This document shows positions 10,225 through 13,173 of a stretch of DNA of 32,647 nt, in pieces. Position numbers and translations under genes: made by a program. The notes under the pieces are model-generated. The model did no database searches and was not told the origin of the DNA. It saw only the letters and a program-made list of their open reading frames with translations. The stretch is from Flavobacteriales bacterium UBA2426. GTDB lineage: Bacteria; Bacteroidota; Bacteroidia; Flavobacteriales_F; PHOS-HE28. The DNA is taken from the NCBI GenBank assembly GCA_002342985.1, contig DDRC01000058.1, positions 519 to 33,165 on the forward strand, given 5' to 3'. Positions within the stretch are counted from its first letter, which is position 1. Each line of letters opens with the position of its first letter.

Positions 10225-10298
10225 GGCGAATGGTCGCTAGCGAATGGTGAATGAGCAACCGCCGCTCTGCCATTCACCATTGACCATTCGCCATTCAC
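10225..10298. repeat. Inverted arrays of tandem 7-mers forming a hairpin before hmgA
   Basis: The right arm (10271-10298) is four head-to-tail heptamers: CATTCAC, CATTGAC, CATTCGC, CATTCAC. The left arm (10226-10253) is the inverse: GCGAATG, GTCGCTA, GCGAATG, GTGAATG. Two perfect 11-base pairings join them (10225-10235 with 10282-10292; 10243-10253 with 10271-10281), leaving a 17-base loop. It fills most of the trhO-hmgA gap. It could act as a terminator for trhO or as an mRNA structure in the hmgA leader; no T-run follows. Confidence 0.8.
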
Positions 10299-10311
10299 CC
10301 GCATCCGCACC

Positions 10312-11469
10312 ATGCCCATCTACCACACCCTCGGCAAGATCCCCCACAAGCGCCACACCGTCTTCAAGAACGGCAAGGACCGCTACTACTACGAGCAGCT
10401 CTTCGGCACCATCGGCTTCGATGGCATGAGCACCCTGAGCTACCACGTGCACCGTCCCACCATGGTGAAGGAGCTGCGCAAGCCCAAGGACGTCACGCCC
10501 AAGATCGCCATCGAGAAGAACATGCGCTCGCTGCGGCTGCACGGCTTCAAGGCCACGCCCGCCAAGGACCACCTGGCCGCCCGCAAGCCCATCCTGGTGA
10601 ACAGCGATTGTGCCATCGTGCTCGCCGCGCCCCAGGCGAAAAGCGTGGACTACTTCTACAAGAACGCCGACTGCGATGAGATGATCTTCGTGCACAAGGG
10701 CAGCGGCACCCTGCGCACCTTCCTGGGCAACATCGACTTCAAGTACGGCGACTACCTGATGATCCCCCGCGGGATGATCTACACGATGGAGTTCAAGGAT
10801 GCGGACAACCGCCTCTTCATCGTGCAGAGCCACCGCCCCATGTACACGCCCAAGCGCTACCGCAACTGGTTCGGCCAGCTGCTGGAGCACAGCCCCTTCT
10901 GCGAGCGCGACATCCGCCGCCCCAAGAAGCTGGAGACGCACGACGAGAAGGGCGACTTCGTGATCAAGGTGAAGAAGCAGGGCCTGCTGCACGAGTTCGT
11001 GTACGCCAGCCACCCTTTTGACGTGGTAGGCTGGGACGGCTACAACTACCCCTACGCATTCAGCATCCACGACTTCGAGCCCATCACCGGCCGCGTGCAC
11101 CTGCCGCCGCCCATCCACCAGACCTTCGAGACGGATGCCTTCGTGGTGTGCAGCTTCGTGCCGCGCCTGTACGACTACCACCCGCTGGCCATCCCCGCGC
11201 CGTACAACCACAGCAACATCGACAGCGATGAGGTGCTCTACTACGTGGATGGCGACTTCATGAGCCGCAACGACATCGGCCCGGGCCACATCAGCCTGCA
11301 CCCCGCCGGCATCCCCCACGGCCCGCACCCCGGCGCCATGGAGCGCAGCATCGGCAAGAAGGAGACCAACGAGCTCGCCGTGATGGTCGATACCTTCAAA
11401 CCGCTGATGGTGACCGAGGAGGCGCTGAAGATCGACGATGGGAAGTACTGGAAGAGCTGGCTCGAATGA
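10312..11469 (+). CDS. hmgA: Homogentisate 1,2-dioxygenase
   Basis: Non-haem iron dioxygenase that opens the ring of homogentisate to maleylacetoacetate in tyrosine and phenylalanine breakdown. The 385-residue protein shows the cupin-like core of bacterial HmgA: YFYKNADCDEMIFVHKGSG, GDYLMIPRGMIY, and the conserved VGWDGYNYPYAFSIHDFEPI. Candidate iron ligands lie in NHSNIDSDEVLYY (His300 and an acidic residue at 306-307) and HPAGIPHGPHPG (about 330-339). The start MPIYHTLGKIP is the usual N-terminus. hpd, which makes its substrate, follows after one intervening gene, so an ancestral hmgA-hpd pair has probably been split. Its stop codon lies inside the first octamer of the repeat array downstream. 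Confidence 0.95.
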   Translation: MPIYHTLGKIPHKRHTVFKNGKDRYYYEQLFGTIGFDGMSTLSYHVHRPTMVKELRKPKDVTPKIAIEKNMRSLRLHGFKATPAKDHLAARKPILVNSDCAIVLAAPQAKSVDYFYKNADCDEMIFVHKGSGTLRTFLGNIDFKYGDYLMIPRGMIYTMEFKDADNRLFIVQSHRPMYTPKRYRNWFGQLLEHSPFCERDIRRPKKLETHDEKGDFVIKVKKQGLLHEFVYASHPFDVVGWDGYNYPYAFSIHDFEPITGRVHLPPPIHQTFETDAFVVCSFVPRLYDYHPLAIPAPYNHSNIDSDEVLYYVDGDFMSRNDIGPGHISLHPAGIPHGPHPGAMERSIGKKETNELAVMVDTFKPLMVTEEALKIDDGKYWKSWLE

Positions 11470-11503
11470 TCAGATGATCGGGCGATCAGATGATCAGATA
11501 ATG
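11464..11503. repeat. Left tandem octamer array (AGATGATC type)
   Basis: Five consecutive 8-base units: GAATGATC, AGATGATC, GGGCGATC, AGATGATC, AGATAATG. The first unit contains the hmgA TGA stop codon. It is the inverse complement of the array at 11984-12023. Confidence 0.85.
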
Positions 11504-11520
11504 GGAATACCTTGGAAGCG

Positions 11521-11979
11521 ATGAACAGGGTGAAGGACATGGATCTGAAGCAATGGCAGAACGCCATGGCAGAAGATGAGTTGTTCGCTCCGTTGATGGC
11601 GGCCGAAGCGCCGGTTTCCTACAACCCGCGCTACAAGGACAACACCATCGTCACACTCACCTTTCGCTTCGCACAGCACATTTGGGACCTGGCCGAGGAG
11701 CTTCAGGACAAGAAGAAATTCGTGGTGGCGAACCAGGTCTTCCGCTCCGGCACAGCCATCGGCGCCTTGGTCCGTGAAGCCCAGAACGGAGAAAGTCTGG
11801 CGGACTTCATCCACAAAATGAAGATCGCGTTGAAAGAAGCCGATGAGACGGAGTACTGGCTGCTCCTGTGTATTAGCCGCAACATTGATAGCGCGAAAGC
11901 CTGCTTGGAGGAGCTCAGGCCCATCATCCGCATCCTGAACAAGATCATCAGCACCTCCAAGGACAAATTGAACCGCTAA
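11521..11979 (+). CDS. Four-helix-bundle protein of the S23/IVS (Avd-like) family
   Basis: Small 152-residue protein of the family found inside 23S rRNA intervening sequences of Leptospira and Coxiella, and related to Avd, the RNA-binding accessory protein of diversity-generating retroelements. Visible family signatures are FRSGTAIGALVREAQNGES (74-92), DFIHKMKIALKEADETEYWL (95-114) and the C-terminal LRPIIRILNKIISTSK (132-147). These should form four helices at about 43-62, 65-88, 91-117 and 121-148. Relatives are mostly 115-130 residues; the first 40 here are an extension. The ATG at 11521 is chosen; a TTG nine bases upstream or an ATG at 11539 are alternatives. Base composition is visibly less GC-rich, with many A/T third positions, than hmgA and hpd on either side. 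This is consistent with later arrival. Confidence 0.9.
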   Translation: MNRVKDMDLKQWQNAMAEDELFAPLMAAEAPVSYNPRYKDNTIVTLTFRFAQHIWDLAEELQDKKKFVVANQVFRSGTAIGALVREAQNGESLADFIHKMKIALKEADETEYWLLLCISRNIDSAKACLEELRPIIRILNKIISTSKDKLNR

Positions 11980-11983
11980 CCCC

Positions 11984-12023
11984 GATCATCTGATCATCTG
12001 ATCATCTGATCGACAGATCGACA
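11984..12023. repeat. Right tandem octamer array (GATCATCT and GATCGACA units)
   Basis: Five consecutive 8-base units: three perfect GATCATCT (11984-12007) and two perfect GATCGACA (12008-12023). The array starts five bases after the four-helix-bundle stop codon and ends five bases before the hpd ATG, so it occupies the place where an hpd ribosome-binding site would be. Confidence 0.9.
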
Positions 12024-12027
12024 AGCA

Positions 12028-13173
12028 ATGGCAACCGGACTGAAAGACGTGGACTACGGCCTGGAGAAGATCATGGCCGATGCACAGGACTTCCTGCCCC
12101 TGCTGGGCACGGACTATGTGGAACTGTACGTGGGCAATGCCAAGCAGAGCGCCCACTATTACAAGAGCGCCTGGGGCTTCCAGAGCGTGGCCTACGCCGG
12201 CCTGGAGACGGGCGTAAAGGACCGCACCAGCTACGTGCTGCAGCAGGACAAGATCCGCCTGGTGCTGACGACCCCGATGACGCCGGACAGCCCGATCAAC
12301 GAGCACATCCGCAAGCACGGTGACGGCGTGAAGGTGATCGCCCTGTGGGTGCCCGACGCGAAGAAGGCCTGGGAGGAGACCACCAAGCGCGGTGCCAAGA
12401 GCTTCATGGAGCCCGTGCGCGAGGAGGATGAGCACGGCTACGTGGTGCGAAGCGGCATCCACACCTATGGGGAGACGGTGCACATCTTCGTGGAGCGCAA
12501 CGAGTACAAGGGTGTGTTCATGCCCGGCTTCAAGCCGTGGAAGAGCCACTACAATCCGCCGCCCGTGGGCCTGAAGTACATCGACCACATGGTGGGCAAC
12601 GTGGGCTGGGGCGAGATGAACACCTGGGTGAAGTTCTATGCCGAGGTGATGGGCTTCGCACAGCTGGTGAGCTTCGACGACAAGGACATCAGCACGGACT
12701 ACACCGCGCTGATGAGCAAGGTGATGAGCAACGGCAACGGCCGCATCAAATTCCCCATCAACGAGCCGGCCGAGGGCAAGAAGAAGAGCCAGATCGAGGA
12801 GTACATCGAGTTCTACAACGGCGCTGGTGTGCAGCACATCGCGGTGGCCACCAACAACATCATCGAAACGGTGGGCGCGCTGAAGGACCGCGGGGTGGAG
12901 TTCCTGTACGTACCGCCCAGCTACTACGACACCGTGCTGGACCGCGTGGGCGAGATCGACGAGGACCTGGCGGTGCTGAAGCAGCACGGCGTGCTGGTGG
13001 ACCGCGACGACGAGGGCTACCTGCTGCAGCTCTTCACCAAGCCGGTGCTGGACCGCCCCACGATGTTCTTCGAGATCATCCAGCGCAAGGGCGCCAAGAG
13101 CTTCGGCAAGGGCAACTTCAAGGCCCTGTTCGAGGCGATCGAACGGGAGCAGGCGAACCGGGGGACGTTGTAG
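12028..13173 (+). CDS. hpd: 4-hydroxyphenylpyruvate dioxygenase
   Basis: Iron(II) dioxygenase converting 4-hydroxyphenylpyruvate to homogentisate, the substrate of HmgA. The 381-residue protein has two vicinal-oxygen-chelate halves. The metal triad is His187 (YIDHMVGN), His270 (GVQHIAVAT) and Glu349 (MFFEIIQRKG), followed by the conserved C-terminal GAKSFGKGNFKALFEAIE helix. Length and motif spacing are normal. Third codon positions are almost all G or C, as in hmgA. With hmgA it forms the middle of the tyrosine catabolic pathway; the tyrosine aminotransferase and the later maleylacetoacetate and fumarylacetoacetate steps are not in the window. The leader is dominated by the octamer repeat array. 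Confidence 0.97.
   Translation: MATGLKDVDYGLEKIMADAQDFLPLLGTDYVELYVGNAKQSAHYYKSAWGFQSVAYAGLETGVKDRTSYVLQQDKIRLVLTTPMTPDSPINEHIRKHGDGVKVIALWVPDAKKAWEETTKRGAKSFMEPVREEDEHGYVVRSGIHTYGETVHIFVERNEYKGVFMPGFKPWKSHYNPPPVGLKYIDHMVGNVGWGEMNTWVKFYAEVMGFAQLVSFDDKDISTDYTALMSKVMSNGNGRIKFPINEPAEGKKKSQIEEYIEFYNGAGVQHIAVATNNIIETVGALKDRGVEFLYVPPSYYDTVLDRVGEIDEDLAVLKQHGVLVDRDDEGYLLQLFTKPVLDRPTMFFEIIQRKGAKSFGKGNFKALFEAIEREQANRGTL

Follow-up and report, generated by a model that had tools for sequence, protein, structure and literature searches.

S23/IVP genes bracketed by inverted arrays of tandem 7-8-base units: a probable IVS-like mobile element between protein genes

Results and Discussion

Between hmgA and hpd of Flavobacteriales bacterium UBA2426, an S23/IVP four-helix-bundle gene (PF05635) is bracketed by about five plus five 8-base tandem units in opposite orientation. 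The locus lies in a stretch of 32,647 nucleotides (assembly GCA_002342985.1, contig DDRC01000058.1, forward-strand positions 519 to 33,165), which we refer to as the window. Comparison with other genomes revealed that such arrays bracket S23 genes widely, that the repeat word covaries with the S23 protein, that gene and arrays move as one unit, and that cognate arrays without a gene occur in several genomes. We consider it probable, at roughly 65%, that these are mobile elements resembling the intervening sequences (IVSs) of rRNA but residing outside rRNA, each made up of an S23 gene with cognate tandem-array arms and accompanied by gene-less derivatives. This supports the original prediction, made from the letters of the window, of an IVS-like element living between protein genes.

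The element between hmgA and hpd

On reading the sequence, the left array consists of GATCAGAT, GATCGGGC, GATCAGAT, GATCAGAT and AATGGGAA (11468-11507) and the right array of three copies of GATCATCT followed by two of GATCGACA (11984-12023), which are the five and five opposed 8-mers originally described. The perfect inverted repeat reported between the arms as 16 bases is present but measures 17 (11466-11482 with 11981-11997), and longer arms extend over 28 nt at 89% and 38 nt at 79%. The arrays do begin at the hmgA stop codon, with the TGA (11467-11469) overlapping the first left unit, but the gap before the hpd ATG (12028) is four bases and not five. The 12-mer GATCATCTGATC, allowing at most one mismatch, has six matches in the window, one of them inside hmgA, compared with 0.17 expected, and none of 100 shuffles reached six. 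In the predicted RNA fold of the element the two arms base-pair with each other to give the outermost stem (z -3.7 vs 100 shuffles), consistent with the pairing in the mRNA that had been envisaged.

The single gene between the arms belongs to the S23/IVS family as proposed, scoring above the curated cut-offs of both PF05635 (E 1.2e-18, 67.7 bits vs 33.8) and TIGR02436 'four helix bundle protein' (E 2e-23, 82.7 bits vs 24). For the neighbouring genes, hpd was above the cut-off for TIGR01263, and hmgA was above that for Pfam HgmA_N and below that for TIGR01015 (59.9 vs 510.75 bits). The features of the locus are collected in Table 1.

Table 1. Features in and around the hmgA-hpd element, in window coordinates
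Feature	Position	Strand	Basis
Left arm, about five tandem octamers (GATCAGAT type), hmgA stop overlapping the first unit	11466..11505	+	sequence reading, repeat search
Right arm, five tandem octamers, inverted (GATCATCT / GATCGACA)	11984..12023	+	sequence reading, repeat search
Left half of the 17-base perfect inverted repeat (partner 11981-11997)	11466..11482	+	repeat search
Right half of the 17-base perfect inverted repeat (partner 11466-11482)	11981..11997	+	repeat search
Inner motif AATGGGAATACC beside the left arm, recurring with small changes in octamer and heptamer elements without a gene within the genus	11500..11511	+	
S23/IVP four-helix-bundle gene, ATG at 11521; the open frame permits TTG at 11512	11521..11979	+	PF05635, TIGR02436, predicted fold
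hmgA-like gene, upstream host gene	10312..11469	+	Pfam HgmA_N
hpd, 4-hydroxyphenylpyruvate dioxygenase, downstream host gene	12028..13173	+	TIGR01263
Gene-less element, GGTGAATG / CATTCAC heptamers, inverted, short loop, between trhO and hmgA	10227..10299	+	sequence reading

Bracketing of S23 genes at other loci

Flanking inverted repeats proved to be shared by other members of the family, in UBA2426 itself, in its relatives and in other groups. The UBA2426 assembly (3.64 Mb in 256 contigs, 84% complete) has five PF05635 matches, L001-L005, with L003 being the window gene. Arrays of GGGCTGC type at L001, GGTGAATG type at L002 and GATCATCT type at L003 stand on both sides of the gene; L004 has CATGTTC-type repeats on the right, its left flank being masked, and L005, a weak PF05635 match, has a small inverted array on the upstream side only.

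Bracketing was scored by local alignment of the upstream flank with the reverse complement of the downstream flank, with levels set by mismatched flank pairs. For 111 S23 genes of this and related genomes the median score was 16.5, compared with 8.0 for 333 mismatched pairs, and 87 genes exceeded the 95% level and 61 the 99% level. This is a non-random sample, drawn from the five UBA2426 loci and 110 listed places in relatives (30 chosen by a program and 80 taken in list order, best E-values first), after L005 was missed by the profile and duplicates and genes with short or masked flanks were removed. Another 21 genes of the window scored at most 11.5. Among 228 control genes in fragments of the related genome G058, 17 passed the 95% cut and two the 99% cut, the highest score belonging to the G058 copy of the window-locus S23 gene. 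Because pairing of whole-gene flanks is this rare at control genes, we dropped the reading that the arms are a terminator only.

Of 110 genes, 52 showed tandem periodicity on one side at least and 11 on both sides, and none of the 110 gene starts did, at a threshold (17 of 20 matches) that 0.5% of 660 shuffled flanks reached. The 63 periodic flanks had a period of 7 in 42 cases and of 8 in 11. A de novo scan for near-exact segments of period 6 to 9 in 400 kb of G058, under a criterion that was too strict, gave 11 segments, three of them paired.

Among the named loci (the best 80 of at least 586), 51 were above the 95% level and 21 above the 99% level. Nineteen of the genomes with these named loci gave 108 PF05635 matches, of which 70 were tested, 54 exceeding the 95% level and 48 the 99% level; these 70 comprised 30 chosen by the program and 40 picked to favour non-Bacteroidota, overlapped the 80-locus set and were all treated with the standard genetic code. 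Genes from 13 genomes titled outside the listed Bacteroidota genera passed the 95% level in 43 of 59 cases, with at least one per genome, the genomes being those of Thiohalocapsa, Fibrobacter, Phycisphaerales, Planctomycetaceae, Kaiserbacteria, Parcubacteria, Ignavibacteriae, Acidobacterium, Wolfebacteria, Pontiellaceae, Gracilibacteria, Oscillospiraceae and Fodinibius. Some taxonomies place Fodinibius and Ignavibacteriae in Bacteroidota, and the count without them is 32 of 44. In Acidobacterium one of four S23 genes passed, with a period of 11. Several of the 13 are metagenome-assembled genomes, so single contigs could be misbinned.

At least 56 of 58 related genomes have PF05635 genes and, among the matches listed, none of 14 well-known control genomes does; a search of viral contigs gave one weak S23 locus. 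In-frame stops interrupt 12 of the 108 matches in the named genomes, as expected for decaying copies. With respect to operons, 125 of 216 elements had both neighbours co-directional, a count from which we drew no inference because the method, based on the longest neighbouring open reading frame, mis-called even hmgA.

Covariation of repeat word and S23 protein

For the 149 of 216 genes with an arm score of at least 13 (seven of which were removed for short flanks), we compared S23 identity with arm similarity between genes in different genomes and at different sites. The same-strand correlation was r=0.242, reached by none of 1000 permutations, and the opposite-strand one was 0.031. It was 0.240 under a looser definition of 'same site' and 0.225 without L325, around which the site filter may have missed same-site pairs. 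Within the named genomes, within the relatives and between the two sets it was 0.254, 0.320 and 0.117, respectively (0/1000 permutations each). Different-site pairs with at least 60% S23 identity had an arm similarity of 0.40 (61 pairs), compared with a background of 0.18. Pairs of S23 genes from separate sites within a genome were at background (0.19, 78 pairs), and even at one and the same site the word varies, with an arm similarity of 0.28 at 50-60% protein identity. Because the word tracks the protein at unrelated sites and falls to background within a genome, we concluded that the arrays tend to go with the lineage of the S23 gene and not with place or host. The correlation is modest, many similar S23 proteins having different words. 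Among all 216 genes, the best E-value match of the Thiohalocapsa S23 protein is that of Fibrobacter, 55% identical, and both have GTGGTTA arms. Indirectly, this covariation of protein and repeat suggests that an S23 protein may recognise its own arrays.

The same results bear on the idea that the arrays are a passive hotspot, growing by slippage in intergenic DNA where S23 genes merely land. Arrays do slip, as follows from the array at L206 4477 (G000:C31), where UBA2426 has one 8-bp unit more than G058 in locally identical DNA. Strand-specific covariation at unrelated sites, the lack of common words among S23 genes of one genome and the inverted pairing of the arms around the gene all speak against such a hotspot, which the covariation results already disfavour and which we regard as highly improbable.

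Movement of gene and arrays

Close relatives of the window S23 protein (at least 67% identity) are encoded by eight genes in seven of 45 genomes of the genus. G015 has two copies, one at the hmgA-hpd junction and one at a rhodanese/YeeE-type junction (gene names from translation reading), both in GATCNTCT arrays. A query spanning the second site matched the hmgA-hpd copies of G067 and of G015 itself from 532/534 to 1093/1094, which is to say over arrays plus gene, and the copies of UBA2426 (G000), G058, G002, G019 and G032 matched a shorter inner part. The flanks of the second site continue into relatives without the element: in the 23 of 29 relatives with both flanks resolved the S23 gene is always absent, and 15-132 nt stand in place of about 560. 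Six of these 23 loci hold a gene-less GGTGAATG element, one (G059) holds an octamer array, and no array was seen in 16. The S23 gene and its arrays thus move as a unit.

Of the 30 hpd loci we examined, 21 (among them that of UBA2426) have hmgA on the upstream side, and seven of these 21 have an S23 gene in between, so the gene is not carried by all relatives. Five of the seven genes are from this genus and two from other families (G042 and G057). In a FastTree phylogeny of 219 domains the G057 protein grouped with S23 genes at another junction of the genus (support 0.81), and the G042 protein, which has a different word, was sister to the hmgA-hpd group of the genus (support 0.79). Given these placements, of moderate support, and the difference in word, S23 elements have likely arrived at this junction repeatedly. 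Alignment of UBA2426 with G058 yielded no clean recent insertion. Identity between UBA2426 contigs and G058 is 96-99.9% over some long alignments and 82-92% over others; masking explains part of this, and chimeric assembly is possible. S23 genes also recur before an sdhB-like gene (named from translation reading) in several genomes of the genus.

Site histories of this kind also bear on a host regulatory system, in which S23 would be a post-transcriptional regulator binding its word in mRNA hairpins at many operon junctions, with gene and arrays retained for their usefulness to the host. S23 genes recur before sufC-like and thiolase-like genes in different families (names from translation reading), several dispersed arrays adjoin starts and stops, and MacGregor suggested translational regulation for TAACTGA arrays (PMC4679880). 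The patchy presence at the hmgA-hpd junction, the in-frame stops in S23 genes, the variation of the word at a single site and the second-site copy in G015 are at odds with such a role. We therefore find regulation an unlikely explanation.

Gene-less and dispersed arrays

In UBA2426, a 20-base octamer pattern (at most three mismatches) had 37 matches on 12 contigs, with none for the backwards control. Eleven further octamer places had no S23 gene in the stretches read. L009, L014, L017 and L016, the last with a masked core, each consist of two opposed arrays about 30 to 370 nt apart; others are single arrays, and at least one place is coding. This array, at L012 / L215 2234-2269, lies within a SufS-like coding sequence (named from translation reading), apparently in frame, and the orthologue of this gene in G058 (L239) has octamer-like sequence at the same place in the opposite orientation.

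When 148 arms were searched against fragments of UBA2426 and G058, the two commonest families were the octamer of the UBA2426 hmgA-hpd S23 gene and the GGTGAATG family of L002, found at up to nine places in the UBA2426 fragments. The rank of the octamer is biased, because many fragments were picked for holding octamers and S23 loci were among them; the GGTGAATG family played no part in that choice, but fragments with the L001 and L002 S23 loci were included. The L001 family had five places in the UBA2426 fragments, near others with three to four, and some foreign arms were as high when summed over both genomes. No match in these fragments was found for 98 of the 148 arms.

Across the genus, the median number of octamer matches was 28 in the seven genomes with a close S23 relative vs 7.5 in the 38 without (p 0.0009, relatedness ignored). 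In the 19 named genomes, a search for GTGGTTA arrays gave 133 matches in Fibrobacter (G069), spread over many contigs, and 23 in Thiohalocapsa (G068), which lie on two contigs and include the S23 locus itself; G072 had two and the remaining 16 genomes none. GGTKAATG, the S23 word of the Gracilibacteria genome G078, had 22 matches there and 0-3 elsewhere, its backwards control having 41 in G076. Gene-less arrays thus tend to match S23 genes of the same genome, though not in every case.

Such arrays could also be recombination sites of a general cassette system, swapping any cargo, of which S23 would merely be the commonest. In contig C54 of UBA2426 (L009 / L202, near G000:C54:19800-19930) a gene-less octamer element stands where G058 (L243) and G024 (L244) have an rsgA-like GTPase gene (named from translation reading), and in its contig C31 inverted arrays surround a stretch with a short unrelated open frame. 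Against this, the word tracks the S23 lineage, the element has no recombinase, and other cargo was seen in single cases only, which leaves the cassette system quite improbable.

The gene-less heptamer element between trhO and hmgA belongs to the unit class that also brackets L002, and brings a second repeat family to within 1.3 kb of the octamer element. An inner motif, AATGGGAATGCC or close to it, stands beside one arm in octamer and heptamer elements, with or without an S23 gene, despite their differing words; the 14 inner-motif elements came from a search pattern that itself includes the motif.

S23 protein and possible mechanism

We know of no function for PF05635 and of no catalytic site in the S23 four-helix bundle, and PADLOC assigned no family to the window S23 protein. 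The AlphaFold model of this protein has a mean pLDDT (predicted local distance difference test) of 84, with residues 1-40 uncertain. It matched 2RLD (E 0.001 or better, 41-42% identity) and 2GSC (E 0.004-0.04), crystal structures with five chains each, and, with E 0.12-0.65 and probability 0.99-1.00, Avd (4DWL) and ribonucleoprotein chains of a diversity-generating retroelement (DGR). The PHROG profile 'Avd protein of DGR' matched the relative L070 and not the window protein. 2GSC is described as a homopentamer (PMC4990558). Where units could be counted, arms had a median of 4.9 on the left (101) and 4.6 on the right (106), with a mode of 4-5, under a threshold that disfavours very short arms. 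Set beside the five chains of 2GSC and 2RLD, this suggests that one repeat unit may correspond to one S23 subunit.

An IVS-like mobile element of this kind could work as follows. In the autonomous form, inverted arrays of 7-8-base tandem units would stand on either side of an S23/IVP gene; in the non-autonomous form, the array pair would enclose a core that is short or unrelated. Each word would tend to be specific to an S23 lineage and to travel with it. The gene would be expressed from the host operon, and the arms may pair in the mRNA as a stem of about 28 bp that host RNase III could trim as in rRNA IVSs. An S23 pentamer may bind the tandem units as RNA or single-stranded DNA, about five units per arm to five subunits per ring, and the complex might recruit a host polymerase or nuclease that copies the segment between the arrays into new gene junctions; elements with the gene would be served in cis and gene-less arrays in trans. 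The route could be RNA-based or DNA-based. More tentatively, and we would put this at less than even odds, S23/IVP proteins in general may be repeat-reading pentamer rings, each reading the 7-8-base word of its lineage at one unit per subunit and mobilising any segment that inverted arrays of the word bracket.

Several observations weigh against an IVS-like mobile element. The 95% bracketing test was failed by 24 of 111, 29 of 80 and 16 of 70 S23 genes, and direct-orientation scores exceeded the 95% level more often than expected (26 of 111, with 17 above the 99% level; 14 of 80; and 13 of 70). The element encodes no nuclease or polymerase, its gene being PF05635 only by Pfam. At the second site of G015 no target-site duplication or clean boundary was evident (flanks 75-88% identical), and the upstream gene takes its final codons and stop from the array, meaning that the spacer was exchanged for the element and not cleanly split. 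Octamer arrays occur in 39 of 45 genomes of the genus, with close relatives of the window S23 in only seven, and six genomes without a close S23 still have 25-58 octamer matches. GTTAGCY gave no support for dispersal in G079, where it occurs only at its own S23 gene; three other genomes had one or two matches. L370, 62% identical to the Thiohalocapsa S23 protein, and L066, nearer to that of Fibrobacter, both have other words. Long-term persistence of some sites could reflect a host function, and the heptamer repeats of Xanthomonas were described as generally lacking association with known mobile elements (PMC4692102).

Comparison with known systems

The IVSs of 23S rRNA in Leptospira and Coxiella likewise combine an S23/IVP gene with inverted repeats capable of forming a stem, and are sporadically distributed (PMC4990558). 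They are considered selfish, and excision by RNase III was reported for the Coxiella IVS (PMC4990558). The window element shares with them an S23 open reading frame enclosed by inverted repeats able to pair. It differs in lying between hmgA and hpd and not inside 16S or 23S rRNA, an Rfam scan of the window giving one tRNA only and no rRNA, and in having arms of 7-8-base tandem units, a word that varies by S23 lineage and, at other places in the genome, copies that lack the gene.

Heptamer arrays have been described with the word GGGAATC in Xanthomonas and Nostoc (PMC4692102) and TAACTGA in Beggiatoaceae, Cyanobacteria and Bacteroidetes (PMC4679880). These arrays are similarly intergenic and tandem, with 70 and 75 inverted pairs in two Xanthomonas genomes and four units in most motifs (PMC4692102), and the 2GSC structure comes from Xanthomonas campestris. 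Text searches of the available parts of both papers found no tie of the arrays to an S23 gene, and our literature search, with most subscription papers outside its reach, found no paper linking the two. For TAACTGA arrays, MacGregor noted a distribution that suggests horizontal transfer with no evident mechanism (PMC4679880). S23 elements offer one cause for such unexplained intergenic arrays, and the cognate word gives each S23 lineage a directly testable nucleic-acid ligand. Should S23 proteins be repeat-reading rings, they would define a class of mobile elements across many phyla whose ends are arrays of a tandem word and not fixed terminal repeats, and would account for dispersed heptamer arrays like those found in Bacteroidota, Xanthomonas, Nostoc and Beggiatoaceae, with rRNA IVSs becoming a special case.

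The window protein resembles the Avd of DGRs in fold (4DWL and 8UBE, probability 1.00, E 0.12-0.36), and an S23-Avd link has been noted (PMC10053308). Among the seven window proteins scanned with Pfam there was no reverse transcriptase, and no template repeat was seen beside the element in the part scanned. With regard to insertion sequences, Pfam showed PF05635 only in the element's gene, and transposases with such ends elsewhere in the genome were not searched for. REPIN/RAYT systems also pair dispersed short inverted elements with a rarer gene flanked by the same sequence, but RAYT is a tyrosine transposase, and in the gene of the window element Pfam found no Y1-type transposase. The element therefore departs from rRNA IVSs in its location and from REPIN/RAYT systems in its gene, works most like an IVS, and, as an S23 gene bracketed by tandem arrays, looks like an undescribed kind of mobile element.

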